A DNA stretch of 27,853 nt from a virus: positions 1 through 27,853 of the IMG/VR virus record IMGVR_UViG_3300035670_001040. One strand, 5' to 3'. The stretch's first letter is position 1; each line of letters opens with the position of its first letter. Under the pieces are notes generated by a model. It worked only from the letters and a program-made list of their open reading frames with translations, had not been told where the DNA came from and ran no database searches. Of this stretch, positions 1,285 to 23,649 are shown piece by piece. A program made the position numbers and the translations under genes.

Positions 1285-3633
1285 ATGAAATTCCCATACT
1301 TTTTACAACATTTAGAAGAAGCAACTGCAAAAATCGGTGAAAGTCTCCGGAAAGAGTCTAGAAAAGCAGGTTCAGGGGATCTAAAGGCAAAGGATGCTGC
1401 TAGAAAGCGTGCAGAGCGTGCCCGCCAGATTCCCCGTGAAAGAAAGCCAAAGCAGGAATTAGTCAAGGAAATCATTGCAGTCAAAACCCGTGATGGAAGA
1501 TTGCAACTCATCTTCAAGGATTCTTTCAATCCAGACACACATGAAAAAGTAGGAAAAGATGTGCTTTCCATGGAAGAAGCACAGCAAATTTCCAATGATC
1601 CAAAATTTGAACAAACCCGAGCCTCCAAACTTCTTTTTGGTGATGTGAAAGGCAAGAAGCCTTCAGATAAAAAAGAAGAAAAGAAAACAGAACGCAAAGA
1701 GGGTGGAGAAACCAAAAAAGAAGAGTCTCGGGAAGAAAAGAAAGAAAGCAAGCCAAAAGCAAAACGCCTGTCCAAGGAAGATATTTTCAAGGCCATGTCT
1801 CAAATGGATGGAAACCAACTTGCTCAGATGCCATTGGATGTTCGTCAAGAATACTTCAAGGCCACAAGAAGACCACCACCAAACACCGATTTCGACAACC
1901 TCAGTTACGAAGCATTGACAGTCAAGTTTGCAATCAGTCCTGTATCAAATCTTCCATACAATCAACAAGTATTGAATGCATTGATGTTTTTGGCAAAGAT
2001 CAAGGCTGGTGCATCTGAGCAGGAGATGCAAACATACAATGCACTTGCACCAACTGCCACCGAATTCACCCGGAACGCTTTCAATACTGCAAGAAAGATT
2101 CTTTCACAGATTGGGGACGAGTGCATTCAAAATCTAGTCTCAACAATTGAGACTGGTGGAACTCCGGTCAACTCAGAAGGTGCTGTTGACATGCAATGTG
2201 GAAACTACAAGTTCAAGGTTTCTGCTGGTGGTGAAATGGCTCTTTCGACAACTCAGTTTGATCAGGGAAACAAGTCTTTCAAGGGACTCATTGCTTCTGC
2301 TTTGATGCAGACTTTGAGCAACCCTCAAATGATGCAAGCAGACCCCAAACTTGCAGAAATGATGCAGAGTGCATCACAGGAAACTGCGGGTTTTGCCACA
2401 TCATTGATTCCAGATGAATTGTTGGGAACAATCATGGCCGATGAATCTTTGGTTTCTGAACTGCAGAAGATCAAGTTGAAAAACTCCCAAGGCCAAGATA
2501 TTGGACCAATTTTGGACGCGGAAGGAAATCTAAATCCTTTGGCCTCTCTGCAAAATTACAAAAATACATGGCTTGAAAGAACAAAGGGAATGTTCAGTGG
2601 AAGCAAGTCAAGCAGCAAGTCGCCGCTTCGTGCTGCCGTTGTTTCCACCATTCTCAAAGCAAATCTAAGAGGCGATGGTCTGGTTCCACCAGAGGTAGCC
2701 CCAAATCATTTAGTGACCATCAACGGTGTCTTTCCGCTGACCGATGATTACTTCAACACGATTTCACAACAGGCAGATATTGACATCAAGAAAGCAAAGG
2801 ATGTAATAAATTCTGCAAACATTGGTTCGCTTCGTTCAAGATCCGCCGAGACAATGAAGAAATACAGAACCATTGTTGAGGCCAAGGGAGAAAAGAAATC
2901 CTTGAAAGACATCTTGATTGATGCAAAGACGATCAATCCAATTGAGTTCATTGTCAGGGACATCGTGGACAACAATGACTTCCTGATGAATGCAAGTCTT
3001 CTTCCAGGTTTCTCACCGAAGGACTTGAATTCAGTTGAATACAACTATGTAACGATTGGCAAAAAGACAATAAAGATTCCTGTCATCACAAATGACAGAA
3101 TTGCAAACCAAATGATGCAGGAGTCTGCCTTGTTGGTCAATGATTGCTTGATCGAAGCCTTGACCAACAATTTTGTGCTCAAAGCATTCAGAAACATTGA
3201 GTTGATAACAGATTCAGAGCAGGCTTTGTTTGAGGACAATCCTGCCATGCTTCTTGAGTCATATGAAGATGTGGTTCCTCTCAAAGAAATCTACAAGGCA
3301 ATCATGGAAAAAATTCAAGATGATCCATCAATCCTTGAAGCATTCATTCTTCAACTTGAGGAAGCCGAAAGAGACTACAAGAAAGAATACAAGAATTACC
3401 ACGGCAAGCCAAAGCAAAGAAAAGAAAGAGCAGCCAGAACTGCTGCCCGAGAACTGATGATCAGAAAGGGCAGAGCCAAGCGTGGAGATGGCAAGGACAT
3501 AGACCACAAGAAGCCTCTTCGCAGGGGTGGTTCAAAAGGCATAAATAATCTACGGGTCCGTGATAAATCTTCTAATCGTTCTGACAATGGACACAAAAAA
3601 GGTGAAACACAGAAAAAAGGTAGTTGGGAATGA
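1285..3633 (+). CDS. Large head-associated protein with C-terminal HNH-like domain
   Basis: A 782-aa protein in three parts. The N-terminus MKFPYFLQHLEE resembles a T4 capsid-targeting sequence, with an [LI]-x-E cleavage-like site (LEE, 10-12). A segment of cyanophage type follows (about 60-120), then a Lys/Glu low-complexity stretch (about 122-162). The long middle part I do not recognise. The C-terminus (about 694-782) carries NYHGKPKQRKERA, GDGKDIDHKKPL with His741, GG, NNL near 754-756 and Asn764, the layout of HNH/HNN-type phage nucleases. Its stop overlaps the next start as ATGA. Inference: a structural or head-packaged protein with a nuclease-like tail. Catalytic activity is unproven, since the last metal-ligand position is Asn. 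Confidence 0.6.
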   Translation: MKFPYFLQHLEEATAKIGESLRKESRKAGSGDLKAKDAARKRAERARQIPRERKPKQELVKEIIAVKTRDGRLQLIFKDSFNPDTHEKVGKDVLSMEEAQQISNDPKFEQTRASKLLFGDVKGKKPSDKKEEKKTERKEGGETKKEESREEKKESKPKAKRLSKEDIFKAMSQMDGNQLAQMPLDVRQEYFKATRRPPPNTDFDNLSYEALTVKFAISPVSNLPYNQQVLNALMFLAKIKAGASEQEMQTYNALAPTATEFTRNAFNTARKILSQIGDECIQNLVSTIETGGTPVNSEGAVDMQCGNYKFKVSAGGEMALSTTQFDQGNKSFKGLIASALMQTLSNPQMMQADPKLAEMMQSASQETAGFATSLIPDELLGTIMADESLVSELQKIKLKNSQGQDIGPILDAEGNLNPLASLQNYKNTWLERTKGMFSGSKSSSKSPLRAAVVSTILKANLRGDGLVPPEVAPNHLVTINGVFPLTDDYFNTISQQADIDIKKAKDVINSANIGSLRSRSAETMKKYRTIVEAKGEKKSLKDILIDAKTINPIEFIVRDIVDNNDFLMNASLLPGFSPKDLNSVEYNYVTIGKKTIKIPVITNDRIANQMMQESALLVNDCLIEALTNNFVLKAFRNIELITDSEQALFEDNPAMLLESYEDVVPLKEIYKAIMEKIQDDPSILEAFILQLEEAERDYKKEYKNYHGKPKQRKERAARTAARELMIRKGRAKRGDGKDIDHKKPLRRGGSKGINNLRVRDKSSNRSDNGHKKGETQKKGSWE

Positions 3634-6491: not shown

Positions 6492-6706
6492 TGAATAAAG
6501 TTTTTGTTCTTGCAGCACTTTGGCTTTGTGCAAGAGTTTCTTTCTCTGGCTTCGTTGATGATCTTGGTGTCAGCATCTTCCCAACCAGTCTTGTATTCTT
6601 TCCAATATGGATCAATTGAAAAGACTGCTTGATTTGGAAGTTCACCACCATTCATACGACAACTAAAACCTTTATCATAACCTTCACCGGGCTTATATGC
6701 ACTCAT
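6485..6706 (-). CDS. Small phage protein, unknown function
   Basis: A 73-aa protein (MSAYKPGEGYDKGFSC...), last in the early minus-strand run that starts at 7836. It contains aromatic residues and a C-terminal Cys cluster (SCTKPKCCKNKN), suggestive of metal binding but too short to classify. It starts 2 bases after the stop of the upstream gene, so it is probably cotranscribed and coupled. No recognisable family. Confidence 0.55.
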   Translation of the reverse strand: MSAYKPGEGYDKGFSCRMNGGELPNQAVFSIDPYWKEYKTGWEDADTKIINEARERNSCTKPKCCKNKNFIQD

Positions 6707-6708
6707 TT

Positions 6709-7128
6709 TTAATCCTTTTGATTTGGAGGAAATGGAATCATTCGAATCTGATTCAAGACTTTATCTAATGCTTTCACGTGTGCGTACTGTTCAGTAATTG
6801 CAAGATATCCACGAATCTCAATCAACTTCATGTATTCATCTTGGGTGAAATTAACTACCGTAGACTTTCTGTTGTTCTTGCGATTCGGCTTCTTGATGTT
6901 TTGTTGTCTTGCTTGTTCTTTCAGCAACTCATTTATATTCAAATAGTTTGCCAAATCATCCATTCCATCGCCTTTGTACATGCTCTCCCACATCTTGCGG
7001 AATGATTCAGAATACTTGGAATTGTTTGGAAGTTTCCAATAGTTGAATGGAGGATAATTGTTTGGATTATTGGGGTCATGATCTCCATTTTGCCATTGAT
7101 CAAAGTCGTTATAGTCAGAGTTATTCAT
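6709..7128 (-). CDS. Asn-rich early hypothetical protein
   Basis: A 139-aa protein. The first 35 residues are Asn/Asp/Pro/Tyr-rich and probably disordered (QNGDHDPNNPNNYPP). The rest is helical and ends in a segment resembling small phage helical proteins (FTQDEYMKLIEIRGYLA...HVKALDKVLNQIRMIPFPP). A basic stretch KKPNRKNNRK lies near residues 80-90. Not recognised. It sits 9 bases after the 7138-7434 gene and is probably cotranscribed with it. Confidence 0.55.
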   Translation of the reverse strand: MNNSDYNDFDQWQNGDHDPNNPNNYPPFNYWKLPNNSKYSESFRKMWESMYKGDGMDDLANYLNINELLKEQARQQNIKKPNRKNNRKSTVVNFTQDEYMKLIEIRGYLAITEQYAHVKALDKVLNQIRMIPFPPNQKD

Positions 7129-7137
7129 AGTTTCCTT

Positions 7138-7434
7138 TCAGTTGACATCAAAGAATTGCTCATACAGAACTTTTCCATGATTGTCCGTCACGGAAAGATA
7201 TCGCACATGACGAGTCAGTGCATCATTGATATTTAGGGCATCCTTTGCACCAAATGAAAGGTTCTTGATCCATGCAGGACAACCACCCAAGGAAATTCTG
7301 ACTTCATAGCCATTAATGTCAGAGCCATAGAAATCAAAAGTGGCCTTCTCACCATCATAATAGGTGAAGAAACAATCAATCTTATCAAACTTCTTGCGAA
7401 CGTCCTCAATGGACATTTGTGTAGAATTAGCCAT
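7138..7434 (-). CDS. Early hypothetical protein
   Basis: A 98-aa protein starting at ATGGCTAA, where the start overlaps the stop of the upstream 57-aa gene. An in-frame start at 7503 would run through that gene and is less likely. The sequence has a mixed alpha/beta look (CFFTYYDGEKATFDFYG, YEVRISLGGCPAWIKNL, VRYLSVTDNHGKVLYEQFF) and no motif I can assign. Confidence 0.55.
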   Translation of the reverse strand: MANSTQMSIEDVRKKFDKIDCFFTYYDGEKATFDFYGSDINGYEVRISLGGCPAWIKNLSFGAKDALNINDALTRHVRYLSVTDNHGKVLYEQFFDVN

Positions 7435-7600
7435 TCGGCAATCTCTCTTGCTTGACAGACTTAGGAAGTTGGCCAATCCGGTCAAGCTCTCGGAGTGTTC
7501 CAACCTTTGCGTTCATAAGGCTAGCAGCCCTCTTACGCTTACGAAGTTCATGGCTTCTCTTGTGCTTACGATTAGTAATGCGTTGCTTTGAATTAGGCAT
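7427..7600 (-). CDS. Small highly basic early protein
   Basis: A 57-aa protein (MPNSKQRITNRKHKRSHELR...) rich in Arg and Lys, likely to bind nucleic acid or ribosomes, but not recognised. A strong sigma70-type promoter ends exactly 6 bases before its ATG, so its mRNA is probably leaderless. The next gene starts inside its last codons. Confidence 0.6.
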   Translation of the reverse strand: MPNSKQRITNRKHKRSHELRKRKRAASLMNAKVGTLRELDRIGQLPKSVKQERLPNG

Positions 7601-7606
7601 GATAAA

Positions 7607-7635
7607 AGTATATCACTTTTTCTTGGGTTTGTCAA
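7607..7635 (-). promoter_or_regulatory. Sigma70-type early promoter (TTGACA-N17-TATACT)
   Basis: On the minus strand TTGACA (7635-7630), a 17-bp spacer and TATACT (7612-7607), then TTTATC and the ATG at 7600. The promoter lies inside the end of the upstream 48-aa gene. Confidence 0.75.
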
Positions 7636-7759
7636 GTTTTTTCTTGAGTTCCATGTTTTCAGCTGCAAGTTTTCCAGCCGAAACTGTTATCTCACGATTC
7701 AATTTTTGGAGTTCTTGGATCTTTTCTTGGAGTTTTTTGATTTGGTCTTCTTTGGACAT
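7613..7759 (-). CDS. Small coiled-coil early protein
   Basis: A 48-aa protein (MSKEDQIKKLQEKIQELQKL...) with a clear heptad pattern over about residues 5-42 and a Lys-rich tail. Probably a dimerising coiled coil; function unknown. It overlaps the upstream 45-aa gene by 61 bases in another frame, and the promoter at 7607-7635 lies within its last codons. Confidence 0.5.
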   Translation of the reverse strand: MSKEDQIKKLQEKIQELQKLNREITVSAGKLAAENMELKKKLDKPKKK

Positions 7760-7836
7760 CCAAAAATTTTCTCCCAATTTTCACAGTAAATTTTGTAATT
7801 TACTGGCCGATAAGAATCACCTTTTCCTGCACTCAT
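7699..7836 (-). CDS. Small conserved phage protein (RPVxxxxYxxNWxxIFG type)
   Basis: A 45-aa protein starting MSAGKGDSYRPVNYKIY and containing CENWEKIFG. This matches a tiny family that I recall from many phages (GKGDxxRPV...KY..NYD.IFG). The tail is Lys/Ser-rich. A near-perfect sigma70 promoter ends 6 bases before its ATG, making it the first gene of the early run to 6485. Function unknown. Confidence 0.6.
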   Translation of the reverse strand: MSAGKGDSYRPVNYKIYCENWEKIFGCPKKTKSKNSKKRSKNSKN

Positions 7837-7842
7837 GACAAT

Positions 7843-7870
7843 ATTATATATCATGGTAAACGAATGTCAA
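7843..7870 (-). promoter_or_regulatory. Sigma70-type early promoter (TTGACA-N16-TATAAT)
   Basis: Consensus TTGACA (7870-7865) and TATAAT (7848-7843) are 16 bp apart, with 6 bases (ATTGTC) to the ATG at 7836. The -35 lies 2 bp from the plus-strand late motif at 7873. Confidence 0.8.
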
Positions 7871-7872
7871 AT

Positions 7873-7879
7873 CTAAATA
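7873..7879 (+). promoter_or_regulatory. T4-type late promoter motif CTAAATA
   Basis: CTAAATA followed by ATTTT and the ATG at 7885 (5-base spacing), the same arrangement as at 26885. It sits back to back with the early promoter of the 7836 gene. Confidence 0.6.
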
Positions 7880-7884
7880 ATTTT

Positions 7885-8565
7885 ATGAAGAACAATAAAG
7901 GTTATTATAGTTGGATTCATTCCCTCAAGCAAGCCGCCATGGAATCTCAAGCCAAAGGTGTAGAGATGATTACAGAGGCAAAGAGAGGAAAAATGGAAGC
8001 AGGTATGGATCTTGCTGCAAAGGCTCAAATTGATGCCGAAATTTTGGCAAGAGGTGAACGAAAAGCATTGAGTGCCAGAGAATTGGCTGCTGGCGGTGAT
8101 GCTGATTATGTCGCAGCAGAGGCAGGAGAAGACGAAGATGCTGATCACATTCCAGACATTGCTGATCCTGATTCTGCTAAACTTCCAACCTTTAATGTGC
8201 CTGCAACTCCAGTAACAACACAACACCCAGAACCAATGTATAAGAGTGCTGCAGAAGCAGAGGCAGCAGTCCGTGCCCACAATCAAGCACGCCACGGGCA
8301 TCTAGCACAAAAGGCAGCAGATTTTGCTGGAGCAGTTCAAGCAGGAAGAGAAGCCGCACAGGAAGCTAGAAAAAAGGGTATGTTGCCGAAGAGCGTAAAG
8401 GCTGCAGTCAAAAAGAGAATTGAAGATTATAAGGCATCAAAAAAGGCAGCACGCGAAGAGGAAGCCCCTGAAAGATTTGAAGAAGTAATTACTCCAGAGG
8501 GTCATCGTATGCACATGCCCATGGAATCAGTTAACGATAAGATCAATAGATTCTTGAAAGATTAA
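7885..8565 (+). CDS. Ala-rich T4-like phage protein, late
   Basis: A 226-aa protein (MKNNKGYYSWIHSLKQAAME...), helical and Ala/Glu/Lys-rich. The N-terminal YYSWIHSLKQAAMES block resembles uncharacterised cyanophage proteins. I start it at 7885 because the late motif lies 5 bases upstream; the in-frame ATG at 7864 precedes the motif. An I-T-E site near residue 30 could be cut by a prohead protease. There is an acidic patch (GEDEDADHIPD) and a basic helical C-terminal half. Role unknown; possibly a scaffold or internal head protein. Confidence 0.55.
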   Translation: MKNNKGYYSWIHSLKQAAMESQAKGVEMITEAKRGKMEAGMDLAAKAQIDAEILARGERKALSARELAAGGDADYVAAEAGEDEDADHIPDIADPDSAKLPTFNVPATPVTTQHPEPMYKSAAEAEAAVRAHNQARHGHLAQKAADFAGAVQAGREAAQEARKKGMLPKSVKAAVKKRIEDYKASKKAAREEEAPERFEEVITPEGHRMHMPMESVNDKINRFLKD

Positions 8566-8768
8566 GAATCGGGATTCCCGATATCTCGGGTCCAAACCCA
8601 TTCATCCCAGATTATTTGAGCAAAATCGTCGCCCTTATTATGGCGACGATTTTCTATTTCAGCCATTCCGGGAGCGGATATGGGGGCTTCAAGTTCCCAT
8701 GAATACCAATACCACTCTCCGGGATCTAGTCTCCTGTTCGTAACCAGACACCGGATTTCTCTAGACAT
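8562..8768 (-). CDS. Small Trp-rich hypothetical protein
   Basis: A 68-aa protein (MSREIRCLVTNRRLDPGEWY...) with seven Trp residues (GEWYWYSWE, IIWDEWVWTRD). It overlaps the end of the convergent 7885 gene by 4 bases and carries a perfect 12-bp hairpin in its middle, so either the ORF or the terminator role of the hairpin is compromised. Unrecognised. Confidence 0.45.
   Translation of the reverse strand: MSREIRCLVTNRRLDPGEWYWYSWELEAPISAPGMAEIENRRHNKGDDFAQIIWDEWVWTRDIGNPDS
8622..8653. terminator. Probable bidirectional terminator hairpin
   Basis: AAAATCGTCGCC (8622-8633) and GGCGACGATTTT (8642-8653) form a perfect 12-bp stem with an 8-base loop. Reading either way, the stem ends in TTTT. It lies 57 bases after the end of the 7885-8565 gene and within the 68-aa minus ORF. 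Confidence 0.55.
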
Positions 8769-8771
8769 AAA

Positions 8772-9023
8772 TCAGTTCAATGTATATACTTTTGCACCAG
8801 AAATGTCTGTGACGGCGTAAACATTCATTGGAAAAATTTGTGGCCCTGCGGCTGTTGCTGCAGCAAAATTTAATCCTAAGTTAAAAGTTCCACCTGAACT
8901 ATTGAAGGCCCAAGCAGTTAATCCGGGTGTACCAGTTGTTGGAACTACCAACAAACCCTTGTGTTTTGCTAATTGTGTTACGCCAGCAGTTACTTGTGAT
9001 GCTTGTGAGTATTTGTCGTACAT
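8772..9023 (-). CDS. Small late protein, possibly structural
   Basis: An 83-aa protein starting MYDKYSQASQVTAGVTQLAK, rich in Gly, Thr, Asn and Ala (WAFNSSGGTFNLGLNFAAAT...), as in small beta-rich virion proteins. The start at 9023 is supported by a minus-strand CTAAATA 8 bases upstream; an in-frame start at 9131 would run through the upstream gene. It is the only clear minus-strand gene with the late motif in this window. Confidence 0.55.
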   Translation of the reverse strand: MYDKYSQASQVTAGVTQLAKHKGLLVVPTTGTPGLTAWAFNSSGGTFNLGLNFAAATAAGPQIFPMNVYAVTDISGAKVYTLN

Positions 9024-9031
9024 GTTACAAA

Positions 9032-9038
9032 TATTTAG
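9032..9038 (-). promoter_or_regulatory. Minus-strand T4-type late motif CTAAATA
   Basis: CTAAATA on the minus strand, 8 bases before the ATG at 9023, containing the TAA stop of the upstream gene. Confidence 0.55.
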
Positions 9039-9337
9039 GTTGATTTTATAGTCACATCTTTCATCGCCAAAGAAGTCCAGAACGGCTGCAAATGTTCTGG
9101 TCCTGTGGCAAATCCAACCATCCAAACACATCTTTGAACTCTTCCAACAATTTGATTCACGCCTATGTGATAGGCTGCACCCTCTTCATATTGGTCAATT
9201 TTGACCTTGAAGGGTGTCTTTGATTCCACTTCCTGAATAAATTTTTCAATATAATCAGGATAGACAATTTTGACAATTTTAATAGGCTTCTTAGGCTTAC
9301 GCTTTGGTTGTGTTGATGTTTTACGAATTCTTGGCAT
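9035..9337 (-). CDS. Hypothetical protein downstream of tRNA-Gly
   Basis: A 100-aa protein starting MPRIRKTSTQPKRKPKKPIK, with a very basic N-terminus, then a mixed segment (IEKFIQEVESKTPFKVKIDQ) and WMVGFATGPEHLQPFW. The ATG at 9337 is 3 bases after the tRNA-Gly 3' end; an apparent earlier start at 9367 lies inside the tRNA and is rejected. Probably cotranscribed with the tRNA. No family recognised. Confidence 0.55.
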   Translation of the reverse strand: MPRIRKTSTQPKRKPKKPIKIVKIVYPDYIEKFIQEVESKTPFKVKIDQYEEGAAYHIGVNQIVGRVQRCVWMVGFATGPEHLQPFWTSLAMKDVTIKST

Positions 9338-9340
9338 AAA

Positions 9341-9412
9341 TGCGGCTGGAGAGAATCGAACTCTCATATCAAGCTTGGAAGGCTAGCGTAATGGCCATTA
9401 TACTACAGCCGC
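9341..9412 (-). tRNA. tRNA-Gly (anticodon TCC)
   Basis: A 72-base cloverleaf on the minus strand. The acceptor GCGGCTG pairs with CAGCCGC, the anticodon loop is CTTCCAA (anticodon TCC, reads GGA/GGG), and a T-arm with GTTCGATTC is present. The discriminator is A; CCA is not encoded. Confidence 0.9.
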
Positions 9413-9414
9413 GT

Positions 9415-9421
9415 CTAAATA
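9415..9421 (+). promoter_or_regulatory. T4-type late promoter motif CTAAATA
   Basis: CTAAATA 5 bases before the ATG at 9427 and 2 bases beyond the 5' end of the opposite-strand tRNA-Gly. It fixes the start of the 64-aa gene. Confidence 0.6.
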
Positions 9422-9426
9422 TTTAC

Positions 9427-9621
9427 ATGAAAAAATTAAAAGAAGGCAATCTTTATAATGTTGAACAGTCTGTCACTCCCGGAATGGGAACAAATGTTAG
9501 TAAGGTTGGATTGTCTGCTTGGCAGCGGGAAATGAGAAAACAATTGATGCAAAAATTGAAGCATTATGCACCTGACCAAATACAAAAGATAATAAATGCT
9601 ACTTTTGGGGATAACATTTAA
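9427..9621 (+). CDS. Small late protein, unknown
   Basis: A 64-aa protein (MKKLKEGNLYNVEQSVTPGM...) with a helical C-terminal half (SAWQREMRKQLMQKLKHYAP...IQKIINATFG). The start is set by the late motif 5 bases upstream; an earlier in-frame start at 9340 lies in the tRNA-Gly region. Its stop overlaps the stop of the convergent 9618-9812 gene. Function unknown. Confidence 0.6.
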   Translation: MKKLKEGNLYNVEQSVTPGMGTNVSKVGLSAWQREMRKQLMQKLKHYAPDQIQKIINATFGDNI

Positions 9622-9812
9622 ACTCCAAGGGTTTTTCTTAATTTGATATCTCCCTTGAAATATGAATCAAACCTTGACACAATTTTTTCTTTTTGGGAAA
9701 CAAGTTTATTGTATTCCTTGGTGCTAGATTTGTCATTGGTTTCACAGCGTCCAATGTGCTTCATCGTCTCACCATACTCATAAATCAACTCTTCAAGTTC
9801 CTTGTTGTTCAT
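9618..9812 (-). CDS. Small coiled-coil early protein
   Basis: A 64-aa protein (MNNKELEELIYEYGETMKHI...) that is charged and helical throughout, probably a coiled coil. It stands alone under a sigma70-type promoter that ends 9 bases before its ATG. No family recognised. Confidence 0.55.
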   Translation of the reverse strand: MNNKELEELIYEYGETMKHIGRCETNDKSSTKEYNKLVSQKEKIVSRFDSYFKGDIKLRKTLGV

Positions 9813-9815
9813 GGT

Positions 9816-9822
9816 CTAAATA
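9816..9822 (+). promoter_or_regulatory. Possible late motif CTAAATA
   Basis: CTAAATA here is 34 bases before the likely ATG at 9857 and overlaps the -10 region of the opposite early promoter. The longer spacing makes this site less certain than the others. Confidence 0.35.
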
Positions 9823-9849
9823 GTATAGCAGCGAATAGAGGTTGGTCAA
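9822..9849 (-). promoter_or_regulatory. Sigma70-type early promoter (TTGACC-N16-TATACT)
   Basis: Minus-strand TTGACC (9849-9844) and TATACT (9827-9822) are 16 bp apart and lie 9 bases from the ATG at 9812. The divergent plus gene starts just beyond it. Confidence 0.7.
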
Positions 9850-9856
9850 GCAATTC

Positions 9857-10441
9857 ATGAAACACCCAAATCAATCATTTATTGACAACTTTAATAGACC
9901 AAACCGGGGACCAGAAGGCGTTCCAACCTATCGCTATACTCAAAAATTTATAGAAAAGAAAAGAAAACAAAAGTTTGAATATTTTGTTGAGTCTTTGAAT
10001 AATCCAAAACCAAAGACCAATAATCTTGCTCAAGAAATTAATCGAATCTTTTCCTACAATACTCTTTCAAAGAATACCAAAAAGCCTTTGCTGGAAACCA
10101 AGCAGAGTGTTGGTTCGCTGCCTCAACAGTTCAATTATAATGGATTGGTGTATGCATTCAATCAAGAATTGAATATGTATGTCAATCAACATGGACATGC
10201 AATTTCCATTGAGCAAGCCACGGCATTCATGGAGATGGCACAACTTGAAGAAATTGTAGATGTAAGCCACGATTCTAGTCTTGATGGTGCTCAAAATGCT
10301 AGAGAAGAAAATACATCAATACCACCATCACCACCAATTGATTTTCAAGCAAGTTTAAGTACTACACTTCTTGACGGAGTTTGTTTCAGTTGGGTTGATA
10401 CATCAAATAATGAAACAGGTTTTGCAATTTATGCAGGATAA
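9857..10441 (+). CDS. Virion/adhesin-like protein ending in a half fibronectin type III domain
   Basis: A 194-aa protein (from ATG 9857; a TTG at 9842 is possible). Residues about 88-135 form a module (LPQQFNYNGLVYAFN...YVNQHGHAIS...QATAF) repeated in the 11815-12990 protein (LPQNISYNGLLYTYN...FINQFGHKID...QASAF). The C-terminus LLDGVCFSWVDTSNNETGFAIYAG matches the first strands of an Fn3 domain (compare VGLTWSDNSNNERGFYIYQA in the paralogue), but the protein stops there. The missing half appears at the end of the next gene. Probably a surface-exposed virion protein that was interrupted. Confidence 0.6.
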   Translation: MKHPNQSFIDNFNRPNRGPEGVPTYRYTQKFIEKKRKQKFEYFVESLNNPKPKTNNLAQEINRIFSYNTLSKNTKKPLLETKQSVGSLPQQFNYNGLVYAFNQELNMYVNQHGHAISIEQATAFMEMAQLEEIVDVSHDSSLDGAQNAREENTSIPPSPPIDFQASLSTTLLDGVCFSWVDTSNNETGFAIYAG

Positions 10442-10446
10442 GTTAA

Positions 10447-11790
10447 ATGGCTTATATAGTTAATTACAATTCTTCTGAACATGATTTATATGAATATTTG
10501 TCGGGTCCTACTATAGATCCAAAAAATTATGCGAATAATACTCAAGTTTATGGTTACACCTATAATACTAATTTATGGATTGAAAAGCCAGTTTATGGTT
10601 TGTGTGGTGGTGTTGACTTTAGTGGAATAGACGTAAGACCAAGAGGTGCACCATCATATGGATTTGATACATGGGCAAATGCAGATTCTTCAGGAATATC
10701 CTATGTAAATGGAGTTCTTTCTTATCCATCCGCGATATATTTTTTAGGTGGATATCAAAACATTCAAACATGTTATTTTCCAGGTTGCCCAACTGGCAAT
10801 TTTGATAGGGCAAGTAATTATAATTATTGGAATAATGGCGTATTTGCAAAAATTTTAATAAGTCCAAAACATTTTATTTCAACATTACATTTTGTTGGTG
10901 CTGGACCTAAATCTACAACAGCATTTTTTCTCGGAAAAGGTGGAACATTTTATTCAAAAACAGCATTTAAAAAATTTGATTTTCAACCAGCCGGAAGTCC
11001 TGCTGGATATACTTGGCCTGCTGGTTATACTTGGCCACAATACAAAGATTGGTGTTTATTTGAATTGGACGAAGCCTTTACAGAAACGCAATTGAATGAT
11101 GTAAAGATTTATAAATTTGCAAATTTGGCTAGCATTCCTCAAGATACACCAATTTATCTTGTTAGTCCTCAAAGTGTAATAACTACTAGAAAAAGAGGAA
11201 CCGCAAGTATATTAAAGTATGGTGAATCTATTAATTTTTTATCCTTTTATTTTAATCCAAATATAGAAACCACAGTTCCATATTATGGTTATGAAGGAGT
11301 TACTGGAGAAGTTTCAAATACATCAAGCGCTTGGCCTGGGGATAGTGGAACACCATCATTAGTTTATGATACAAATACAAATGACACTTATTTTTTATCT
11401 CTTTTAAGTGGTGGTGGTGGAATTTTTGATAATTCAATTGATCCTTCCCTGTATCCAAATACACCAGATGCCACTGATGGAAAAATACTTTTTGATTCTT
11501 TACAAAAATACATATATGATCAAATTGGCTATACAATAGGTATTGCAAATCTCTCAAGTGCCCAACCGTTGCCCCCACCAACACCGGGTGGTATACCACC
11601 TCCAGAAATTTTTGTTAATGGAAAAACTTTATATCTCCAACAATCTCAAATAGCACCAAATATTACAAATATAGAATTAGGTGGATTGGAGAGTGGTTTA
11701 ACATATGATTTTGCTATAATTTCTTATAATTCCGTTGGGTATTCTGGTTATTCATACATTCAAAATTTTTATTTGCCATTTTCTATTTAA
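10447..11790 (+). CDS. Trypsin-like serine protease with C-terminal half Fn3 domain
   Basis: A 447-aa protein with an S1/trypsin-like catalytic triad: His148 in ISTLHFVG, Asp201 in KDWCLFELDE and Ser300 in WPGDSGTPSLV. The spacing and order fit the chymotrypsin fold. The N-terminal 130 residues are Tyr/Asn/Gly-rich with no signal peptide. Positions 186-197 hold a tandem AGYTWP repeat. After a Pro-rich linker (PLPPPTPGGIPPPE), residues about 385-447 look like the second half of an Fn3 domain (NIELGGLESGLTYDFAIISYN). A weak AGGA lies 5-8 bases before the upstream stop. Probably virion-associated; the target is unknown. Confidence 0.7.
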   Translation: MAYIVNYNSSEHDLYEYLSGPTIDPKNYANNTQVYGYTYNTNLWIEKPVYGLCGGVDFSGIDVRPRGAPSYGFDTWANADSSGISYVNGVLSYPSAIYFLGGYQNIQTCYFPGCPTGNFDRASNYNYWNNGVFAKILISPKHFISTLHFVGAGPKSTTAFFLGKGGTFYSKTAFKKFDFQPAGSPAGYTWPAGYTWPQYKDWCLFELDEAFTETQLNDVKIYKFANLASIPQDTPIYLVSPQSVITTRKRGTASILKYGESINFLSFYFNPNIETTVPYYGYEGVTGEVSNTSSAWPGDSGTPSLVYDTNTNDTYFLSLLSGGGGIFDNSIDPSLYPNTPDATDGKILFDSLQKYIYDQIGYTIGIANLSSAQPLPPPTPGGIPPPEIFVNGKTLYLQQSQIAPNITNIELGGLESGLTYDFAIISYNSVGYSGYSYIQNFYLPFSI

Positions 11791-11814: not shown

Positions 11815-12990
11815 ATGGACCGAAGCATTCTTAAACAATATCTGTCTGGTTTTCAAGCCATAAAGCGCCCATCCTTTTTATTAGAAAATTCGATGGCTTT
11901 GGGAAACCTTCCTCAAAACATAAGTTACAATGGTTTGTTGTATACTTATAATCTTCAAGAAAATGCGTTTATAAATCAATTTGGTCATAAAATTGATGCT
12001 AGCCAAGCATCGGCATTTATTACTGAAGCCCGCCAGTTTAATCAATTGATGCCAGCCGCCATAATGGATTTAACAAGCAATGCTAGCGGAGATTCGCCTG
12101 TAATTATAACAGTTGAAAATGGTACAAAAGATATTTTTGTATTTTCTGATCCTATAAATCCAACAACAAAAAATGATATTACTTGGGATTATGTTGACGG
12201 TGTAGATTTTGATGCTGTTGTTGTTTCTTATTCAGCCACAAGTCCTAGTGGCCCTTTCACAACTCTTACAACTATAACTGATACTGAAATTCAGTATTAT
12301 GCCCATACTGGTGTAAGTGCTGGAGAAACATACTATTATAGAGTTTCTTCATCTAAAAATTCTGTTGTTTCTGAGGGTGGAACCATTACTTTCCAAACTG
12401 CTGGATCCACATTACCTCCAGTTGGAGTTACAGCACCATCAGGTCTTTCTTATTACACGATTACAACATCTACTGTCGGCCTAACTTGGTCGGATAATTC
12501 AAACAATGAACGTGGTTTTTATATCTATCAAGCCCTTGGAAATTCTGCGCAACCACTTTCAATTATTCGTGGAACCGTACCAAATCAAAACTCTGTTCTC
12601 ATTCAAAGACTCACAGAAGGAACAACGTATTCGTTTGCAGTTGCTGCCTTTGGAACAGGATTTACATCTGCCCTTACAAATATAATTACAGTAAAAACTT
12701 TGGTAAGTCCACCAGCACAACCAAAAAATCTAACTGCAACTGCTCTTGGAACTTCATCAATAAGAGCTAATTGGGATGGTGCAACTGGTTTAGATTATTA
12801 TAATATAGCCAGATCTACAAACAACATCACTTATACTTCTGGTGTAACTCTACCAGCTGGTTCAACTACATATACCTTCACAGGATTGAGCCAAGGAACT
12901 CTATATTATGTAAGATTGAATGCTCAAAATGCAGGTGGAACTTCAGCATTTGCTTTCGCAAACGCAACAACAGAAGGATTAGGTCTGTAA
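11815..12990 (+). CDS. Virion protein with three fibronectin type III domains
   Basis: A 391-aa protein. An N-terminal module (about 35-75) is shared with the 9857 protein. Then come three Fn3-like domains, roughly 105-197, 203-292 and 297-388, each with a Trp in strand B (ITWDYV, LTWSDN, ANWDGA) and the TYYYRV / TYSFAV / LYYVRL strand-F signature. Tandem Fn3 domains in phages decorate tails or capsids and often bind cell surfaces. No enzymatic motif is seen. Ser/Thr-rich linkers and codon bias match the two preceding genes, so the three probably form one virion module. Confidence 0.7.
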   Translation: MDRSILKQYLSGFQAIKRPSFLLENSMALGNLPQNISYNGLLYTYNLQENAFINQFGHKIDASQASAFITEARQFNQLMPAAIMDLTSNASGDSPVIITVENGTKDIFVFSDPINPTTKNDITWDYVDGVDFDAVVVSYSATSPSGPFTTLTTITDTEIQYYAHTGVSAGETYYYRVSSSKNSVVSEGGTITFQTAGSTLPPVGVTAPSGLSYYTITTSTVGLTWSDNSNNERGFYIYQALGNSAQPLSIIRGTVPNQNSVLIQRLTEGTTYSFAVAAFGTGFTSALTNIITVKTLVSPPAQPKNLTATALGTSSIRANWDGATGLDYYNIARSTNNITYTSGVTLPAGSTTYTFTGLSQGTLYYVRLNAQNAGGTSAFAFANATTEGLGL

Positions 12991-13033
12991 ATTTTTTAAT
13001 CAAGACTTTTAATAAATTTTGATATACAATTCT

Positions 13034-13885
13034 ATGATCGTAAAACGAGAAAATAAATTCGTAGTCATGGATTCAGAAGGAAAAAAAGTACTTGGTACAC
13101 ATTCCACAAAAGAACAAGCAGAAAAACAATTGACTGCTATTCACATTTCTCAAAAGAAGAGAAAGTCACTTAAGGAATTCCTTGAAGAAACTTCACAACT
13201 CACTCTTCAATACCACGATCAACTGAATCCAAATCTTTGGGAAAACAATAAACTAAAAGAAGAAGTAAGAAACAAGCTTCTTCAAATAGCCGATGTGTGG
13301 ACAAAGTTTGCAAAGATTCCAGCAGAAGCCATTGAGGATGTGTTGGTCGTTGGAGGAAATGCAAACTTCAACTATACTCCCTATTCTGACATAGACCTCC
13401 ATATTCTTGTAGATAAATCAAAGATTGCAGACTGCCCAGAAATACTGGATGAATACCTAAAAGACAAGAAGCAACTTTGGGCACATTCACACGACATAAA
13501 GATCTACAGCCACGATGTTGAGATCTATGCCCAAGACATCTCCGAGCAAGTTCCAGCCAACCAAGGGTCCTATAGTCTTACACAGAACGAATGGCTAAAT
13601 GAACCAAAACAAGAAGAAATAAATTTAGAAGATCCTGAAATTTCATTGAAAGTCAATGAACTTATTCATAAAATTGAAGGTATGATTTCTTCCAAAGCAA
13701 GTGATGAATCTTTCACAAAATTGAAAGAAAAGTTCCGTACAATGAGATCTGCTGGTCTAAAGAAAGCAGGAGAATTTTCAGTTGAAAATTTGGTATTCAA
13801 GGAACTTCGAAACCGTGGATATTTGGATAAAGTGAATGATTACATTCTCAGCACACAAGATGAAAATCTAAGCCTTAAAAATTAA
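13034..13885 (+). CDS. Nucleotidyltransferase-fold protein with internal head-tag-like segment
   Basis: A 283-aa protein (from ATG 13034). Residues 1-38 form a small module (VKRENKFVVMDSEGKKVLGT...EQAEKQL) known from many phage proteins. Next comes KSLKEFLEE (44-52), like the start tags elsewhere in the window. The catalytic part has VVGGNANFNYTPYSDIDLHI with Gly107-Gly108, Asp119 and Asp121, and a third carboxylate at Asp161 (HDVEIY). This is the pol-beta/MNT nucleotidyltransferase signature. It would transfer NMPs to an unknown RNA, protein or small-molecule acceptor. The C-terminus is helical. Confidence 0.65.
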   Translation: MIVKRENKFVVMDSEGKKVLGTHSTKEQAEKQLTAIHISQKKRKSLKEFLEETSQLTLQYHDQLNPNLWENNKLKEEVRNKLLQIADVWTKFAKIPAEAIEDVLVVGGNANFNYTPYSDIDLHILVDKSKIADCPEILDEYLKDKKQLWAHSHDIKIYSHDVEIYAQDISEQVPANQGSYSLTQNEWLNEPKQEEINLEDPEISLKVNELIHKIEGMISSKASDESFTKLKEKFRTMRSAGLKKAGEFSVENLVFKELRNRGYLDKVNDYILSTQDENLSLKN

Positions 13886-22536: not shown

Positions 22537-22564
22537 AGTATACTCATATACGCAGGTCAGTCAA
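22537..22564 (-). promoter_or_regulatory. Sigma70-type early promoter (TTGACT-N16-TATACT)
   Basis: TTGACT (22564-22559) and TATACT (22542-22537) on the minus strand, 16 bp apart; the -35 overlaps the end of the methyltransferase gene. Confidence 0.75.
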
Positions 22565-23643
22565 GCATTGTTGGCAATAATTCTCTCGCCAATCCATTCC
22601 ATGCAGTTGACTGCCATGCTGTTTCCAAGAGCCCGATAACGATGCCCATCAGGGCATTCAGACTTTCCACGCCAAGGAATTAAAGTATAATCATCGGGGA
22701 ATCCCTGAAGTCTCTCACATTCACGTGGAGTCAATTTCCGAACACGACTTAAATTAGAAGTATTTTTGATAACCATTGTAAAGCCATCAGCTCTTGAATA
22801 ATCGTGACAAGTAGTTTCAAGGCACGGAGCAACTTCATGACTTGGTATATCAACATTTACTATGGCAGCAAATGAAGCATTGTCTCTTGCCAAGGTATGA
22901 CAAGGATCACCGGGCACACGACTCTGCCTGTTGATCGGTGCAGTTATTTGGAAGAGGTCGTATGGGACGGGGATGTAGGTGTCTCCGTCTTCTCTGAGTC
23001 TAGCGCAGCGCCTTCCTGCAAGGCACTTAGCAATATCTTTGGTAGGATCTTCCCCCGCTTTTCTGCGCGGAGTAGAATGCCTTTGCAGGCTTTGGGACTC
23101 AAAAAGAACTTTTGCGGCACTGGTTGGGTTTCCAAGACATCCGACAACGAAGACACGTCGCCGTCGTTGCGGGACGGCAAAGGGATGCCCGTGTGTTCTG
23201 ACCCACTGAGCGTCCAAGACCCGGTAGGCCCACCCATACCCCAAGTCTCCCAACGCCCCGAGGAAGGTACCAAAATCCCTTCCTCCGTTGCTTGACAGGA
23301 CACCGGAGACATTTTCCCAGACGATCCACTTGGGGCGATAACGCCTAGCGATCTCAAGATAGGTGAGCATGAGTCCACCACGGGGGTCAGAGAGTCCTCC
23401 TCTGAATCCTGCCAAAGAGAAGGACTGGCACGGCGTGCCCCCGACGAGGAGGTCAACTTGTTCTTTGATTTCCCATTTTTCATAATTTTTCATGTCTCCA
23501 AAGTTTGGAACAGTCGGGTAGTGGTGGGCTAATACAGCGGAAGTAAAAGATTCAATCTCGCTGAACCCAACAGGAACCCACCCGAATGGATGCCAAGCAA
23601 CCGTTGCGGCTTCAATGCCTGAGCATACAGAGAGATATCGCAT
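22561..23643 (-). CDS. C5-cytosine DNA methyltransferase
   Basis: A 360-aa Dcm-type enzyme that methylates cytosine at C5 in DNA. All key motifs are visible: I LSVCSGIEAA (4-13), IV GGTPCQSFSLAGF with catalytic Cys72, VI WENVSG (109-114), VIII AVPQRRRRVFVVG (156-168), IX/target region, then LTPRECERLQGFPDDY and X YRALGNSMAVN. I start at ATG 23643, exactly 6 bases after TATAAT; an ATG at 23649 adds two residues. Codon use and local GC are higher than in the flanking late genes, suggesting a separate origin. It could shield the phage genome from restriction. Confidence 0.9.
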   Translation of the reverse strand: MRYLSVCSGIEAATVAWHPFGWVPVGFSEIESFTSAVLAHHYPTVPNFGDMKNYEKWEIKEQVDLLVGGTPCQSFSLAGFRGGLSDPRGGLMLTYLEIARRYRPKWIVWENVSGVLSSNGGRDFGTFLGALGDLGYGWAYRVLDAQWVRTHGHPFAVPQRRRRVFVVGCLGNPTSAAKVLFESQSLQRHSTPRRKAGEDPTKDIAKCLAGRRCARLREDGDTYIPVPYDLFQITAPINRQSRVPGDPCHTLARDNASFAAIVNVDIPSHEVAPCLETTCHDYSRADGFTMVIKNTSNLSRVRKLTPRECERLQGFPDDYTLIPWRGKSECPDGHRYRALGNSMAVNCMEWIGERIIANNA

Positions 23644-23649
23644 GGGCAT

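Follow-up and report, generated by a model that had tools for sequence, protein, structure and literature searches.

A fibronectin type III domain divided between neighbouring genes of uncultured T4-like phages, a putative non-covalent joint between an anchor and its partners

Results

Organization of the locus

The window analyzed in this work (27,853 bases, the full length of its IMG/VR virus record) contained the genes and features listed in Table 1. The gene at 13019-13885 resembled genes of T4-superfamily phages, e.g. Synechococcus phage S-CRM01 and Caulobacter phage Cr30, and the gene group described here is from uncultured T4-like phages. No homologues of ORF1 or ORF2 were found among 50,697 phage records searched, and INPHARED gave no relatives of ORF1, ORF2, the second half of the fibronectin type III (Fn3) domain (“plug”) or the partner protein (effector) of L001, a related IMG/VR contig.

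Table 1. Features of the split Fn3 locus (positions in the window).
Feature	Position	Strand	Description
ORF1, anchor protein	9857..10441	+	ATG 9857, stop TAA 10439-10441, 194 aa; ends in Fn3 first half
Fn3 first half, “socket”	10331..10438	+	Strands A-B-C, ends at C-C' loop; local HMM and alignment with relatives
Stop/restart junction TAAGTTAAATG	10439..10449	+	AGGA ~9 nt before ORF2 ATG; in-frame TAA 10444-10446
ORF2, trypsin-like (S1-type) protease by motif	10447..11790	+	447 aa; Pro-rich linker, then Fn3 second half
Fn3 second half, “plug”	11608..11784	+	Strands C'-E-F-G, ORF2 C-terminus; Pfam, plug of relatives, alignment
ORF3	11815..12990	+	Anchor motif paralogous to ORF1 and Fn3 array ending in complete Fn3, no socket in window

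The N-terminal part of ORF1 comprised ~145 conserved amino acids in the anchor alignment (starting with MKHPNQSFIDNF), with an in-frame TTG upstream of the ATG, at 9842. Its C-terminal end (...PPIDFQASLSTTLLDGVCFSWVDTSNNETGFAIYAG) was an Fn3 domain broken off after strand C, matching columns 15-32 of a local Fn3 HMM (89 columns). The C-terminal end of ORF2 (...PPPEIFVNGKTLYLQQSQIAPNITNIELGGLESGLTYDFAIISYNSVGYSGYSYIQNFYLPFSI) matched columns 41-82 of the same HMM and positions 40-78 of the 84 positions of Pfam fn3 (15.0 bits); in a search of the whole record with the second half from a relative, 11608-11751 was matched with an E of 3.3e-5, the complete Fn3 of ORF3 scoring more poorly (1.4e-4). 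The complementary halves described in the first-pass annotation, with the protease lying between them, were thus recovered, as were the joined halves in ORF3, in which the local HMM detected two complete Fn3 domains and one weak one.

The first-pass annotation had also assigned ORF2 to the S1-type proteases. The motifs H148, D201 and S300 (in PGDSG) were present in that order and were conserved in the only ORF2 protease homologue found, L009 (~32% identical), as in S1 (trypsin/chymotrypsin-like) serine proteases. ORF2 differed from these in having no profile match, and its fold is predicted from the motifs: Pfam, PHROG, Trypsin_2 and PDB sequence searches gave no match for the family, no Pfam match to the Trypsin profile was obtained at E up to 10, and a profile search for PF13365 was negative in the window record and in the record of L009. 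The AlphaFold2 model of ORF2 (alignment of 2 sequences, mean pLDDT 31.6) was too poor for a fold search. ORF2 is, therefore, a putative trypsin-like protease predicted by motif, which may be active as a peptidase. L009 carried no Fn3 half and differed from ORF2 in its C-terminal part, which fits a protease module that acquired the plug in the window lineage.

Elsewhere in the window, an HNH/homing-endonuclease-like gene (675-1274) lay just before a large gene (1285-3633) whose last 85 amino acids matched phrog_4590; proteins of Vibrio and Pelagibacter phages contain this domain at 48-59% identity, and some of these are annotated as HNH proteins. A DNA methyltransferase-like gene (phrog_116, E 3.6e-86) was located at 22561-23649 on the minus strand.

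Recurrence of the split in relatives without the protease

Eight loci carried relatives of ORF1 and, after two near-duplicate pairs were merged, corresponded to six distinct contigs. ORF1 likewise broke off halfway through an Fn3 domain in four of them (L001, L002, L003 and L004/L005), its last residues being ...NETEFKIYYRT. Within a few bases the following ORF started, with the second half at its head (MPNLNPI..DGNTFTLGATL..GISYYFSVVAFN..) and ~800 amino acids of a different module, not a protease, behind it. The plug was therefore N-terminal in the partners of the relatives and, unusually, C-terminal in the window protease. Orthologues of ORF3 in L001, L002/L060 and L006 also ended in a half, followed by a plug-headed ORF4; the junction was identical in the three (...EDGFLIYYRGIT, TGA A ATG, MSSVFFNGNTYTF...) and split the domain at the same place.

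Altogether, the stop and restart at the C-C' loop recurred in five related IMG/VR contigs beyond the window, in each case with no protease. By HMM boundaries in these five, over the two paralogous junctions, first halves ended at columns 32-35 and second halves started at columns 35-43 (mostly 35-38), complementary halves meeting at one loop. Other phage loci that were fetched contained 82 complete Fn3 domains and no terminal halves. Comparison with homologues lacking the protease had been suggested in the first-pass annotation; it gave the same split at the same Fn3 loop, and joined halves amounting to a full Pfam fn3. The proposal that the protease split the domain by its insertion was consequently not supported and was rejected: orthologues without a protease share the split, which belongs to the lineage.

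Single halves all scored below the Pfam fn3 (PF00041, 84 positions) cutoff of 25 bits, and the joined halves of the relatives scored above it. The aligned first halves of the relatives matched positions 1-38 of 84; in L001, the end of ORF1 gave 18.9 bits (positions 2-38) and the start of ORF2 18.7 bits (42-74), and the two joined gave 40.1 bits (E 4e-10). The ORF3 and ORF4 halves gave 23.4 and 16.1 bits alone and 44.1 bits joined. The joined halves of the window remained under the cutoff (15.9-17.7 bits, vs. 14.0 in reversed order). Since the window pair was divergent and its scores weak, its assignment rests on the 76% identity between ORF1 of the window and ORF1 of L001 together with the plug match (E 3.3e-5); the case for a split Fn3 is modest within the window alone, and the relatives make it strong.

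Both halves gave dN/dS values of ~0.08-0.39 (saturated comparisons set aside), indicating that they were maintained by purifying selection while split, and in the alignments the strand-B core Trp and the strand-F Tyr/Phe were invariant. Half-ended anchor genes had a plug partner directly after them in 8 of 8 cases from distinct contigs (ORF1 of the window, L001, L002, L003 and L004; ORF3 of L001, L002 and L006). Anchor genes without a half had none (4 of 4: ORF1 of L006 and L008; ORF3 of the window and L003). Socket and plug were thus jointly present or absent at 12 of 12 anchor genes (Fisher's test P = 0.002, the contigs being related and not independent).

Two arrangements counted in favour of a joint: in L008 the anchor was fused directly to the same type of effector, with both Fn3 halves missing, and ORF1 of L004/L005 had two first halves in tandem, with a pair of plug-headed effectors following it. 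Counting against it, most contigs had one plug-headed ORF more than sockets (L001/L062, L002/L065, L004/L066, L006/L063), and some plugs had no socket directly upstream and followed an effector instead.

Two further arrangements were seen. In L006 (6001-9450; also in L007) the anchor shared one chain with a quite different effector of ~1000 amino acids. A 294-amino-acid protein of L060 (9674-10558; also in L002, L015 and L065) had a plug at its start, two complete Fn3 domains and a socket at its end; it looks like a piece excised from an array of the ORF3 type with the cuts lying within domains, and could form chains or bridges.

Discussion

A putative split Fn3 joint

The arrangement is best explained by a natural split Fn3 whose halves assemble in trans, attaching the partner to the anchor non-covalently, to which a probability of about 70% was given; that the halves assemble, that the virion displays them and that the protease is active are inferences. 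The anchor (ORF1, or its paralogue ORF3 in the relatives) would end in strands A-B-C, the putative socket, and the separately translated partner would bring strands C'-E-F-G, the putative plug. Both would be made from one mRNA by stop/restart translation and co-fold into one Fn3, through which the partner would stay bound to the anchor with no covalent link. The usual partner would be a large carbohydrate-binding, enzyme-like module with its plug at the N-terminus, leaving from the end of strand G. In the window it would be the trypsin-like protease, which, with its plug at the C-terminus behind a proline-rich linker, would hang by this linker from the C-C' loop side. Of the earlier idea that the halves may assemble and tether the protease, non-covalent assembly accordingly stands as the best reading, and the protease insertion as its origin does not.

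The native plug-Fn3-Fn3-socket chain of the 294-amino-acid L060 protein was modelled with AlphaFold2. The ends were not brought together and the plug end was disordered (pLDDT 53, from only 3 sequences), and this predicted non-closure is weak evidence either way.

As an alternative, the junctions may be scars of cassette exchange: homologous recombination within Fn3 repeats would swap downstream modules, leaving halves as by-products that do not assemble, or that pack with something else. The effector cassettes are indeed variable, and duplicated in L004/L005; the 294-amino-acid protein is an Fn3-array segment in mid-domain register; and plugs outnumber sockets. Halves left as scars, however, would hardly be expected to be both under purifying selection, to complement each other exactly at one loop in each of two paralogous gene pairs and to be present or absent jointly, and the junction had no unusual synonymous conservation (dS mostly 0.3-2). 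This explanation was considered unlikely.

Recoding, by programmed frameshifting or ribosome hopping, would join the two ORFs into a normal covalent Fn3. The short distances from stop to start would suit it, and there are documented cases of recoding in the structural genes of phages. The reading frames, in contrast, argue strongly for separate chains. The second ORF was in frame -1 in L001 and +1 in L002, and the open overlap before the stop in the relatives was 10, 35, 4, 4, 2, 2 and 2 nt, with no shared slippery site; the combination of overlapping open frames and a slippery site before the stop was found neither in the window nor in the relatives. In the window the overlap was -8 nt, and since the ORF2 frame has a TAA just before its ATG, past the ORF1 stop, a shifted ribosome would terminate anyway and a frameshifted fusion is impossible. 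The start Met and the following residues were conserved even though frame and spacing vary, and AGAGGA preceded the ORF4 ATG; hopping would require a gap of its own at each locus. Frameshift or readthrough fusion was thus ruled out for the window and is unlikely elsewhere, and recoding as a whole was judged very improbable. The products would be separate chains, with strands A-B-C and C'-G in separate ORFs and not the seven strands of an Fn3 in one polypeptide; the stop and restart giving two proteins, already proposed in the first-pass annotation, is the simplest reading of these sequences.

That sequencing or assembly indels split one continuous gene is scarcely credible and was ruled out by recurrence: although L003 carries several apparent frameshifts in these genes, the same split was seen in independent metagenomes with a conserved start Met and differing spacing, and the second junction (ORF3 and ORF4) recurs unchanged in three contigs.

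Relation to known systems

To our knowledge, a split-domain connector of this sort is known only as engineered, and a literature search limited to open papers gave no published example of an Fn3 split in nature. In donor-strand complementation (chaperone-usher pili) a segment of another subunit completes an Ig-like fold, joining subunits non-covalently, much as is proposed for the phage halves; there, however, one strand is donated, whereas the phage domain is split into ~3 + 4 strands and does not belong to that system. Phage structural proteins carry Ig-like and Fn3 decoration and tail domains, some of them added by programmed frameshifting. Such modules (e.g. T4 Hoc, PMC10385173) are comparable in fold type and in their place on structural proteins of phages, but they are complete in one chain, and frameshifting was excluded at the window junction.

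The closest parallel is the engineered split FN3/monobody (Dutta et al. 2005; split DAM21, PMC11666773). In passages of PMC11666773 that cite Dutta et al. 2005, an Fn3 cut in the CD (= C-C') loop is described as reassembling from two peptides, this site being the most efficient, and the split form as less stable than the intact one (Tm ~45 C vs. 78 C). Fold and loop are the same as in the phage pair (A-B-C and D(C')-E-F-G), with reassembly seen in the engineered pair and predicted for the phage pair; the engineered protein is laboratory-made, whereas the phage halves are natural, lie in neighbouring genes and are linked to anchor and effector modules. Because the engineered Fn3 cut in the same loop reassembles, a non-covalent plug and socket was inferred for the phage halves.

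If the phage halves assemble, they are a natural version of the engineered split-domain connector. This would explain how a phage can exchange enzymes on a structural scaffold with no covalent fusion to be refolded, would caution annotators that an Fn3 truncated at the end of a protein can be a functional joint, and would offer ready-made split Fn3 pairs for protein engineering. Several exchangeable partners occur, the protease among them. Whether the split Fn3 is a general, swappable coupling, in which enzymes bearing a plug at one terminus or the other dock on anchors that end in a socket and one virion could show several alternative effectors, was rated an even chance.

Other breaks and modules in the effector genes

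A second kind of ORF break was observed immediately behind a CBM_4_9-like domain that terminates in WGPQLE (L062: 7849-7862 and 12494-12496; L008: 7035-7065); ORF2 of L001 holds in one chain the modules that this break separates elsewhere. The apparent frameshifts of L003 (contig 3300045125_000058), located at 6588-10421 in the effector and ORF3, are probably sequencing or assembly errors. Plug-headed effectors of L004 (6195-8639 and 8662-11256) and L001 (6588-9191) had differing middles and a nearly identical C-terminal stretch (WWWRITTNPGNTTFVNGQTLSVANNNIVGTWVSTTGPTLAGI), and this common stretch suggests cassette recombination.
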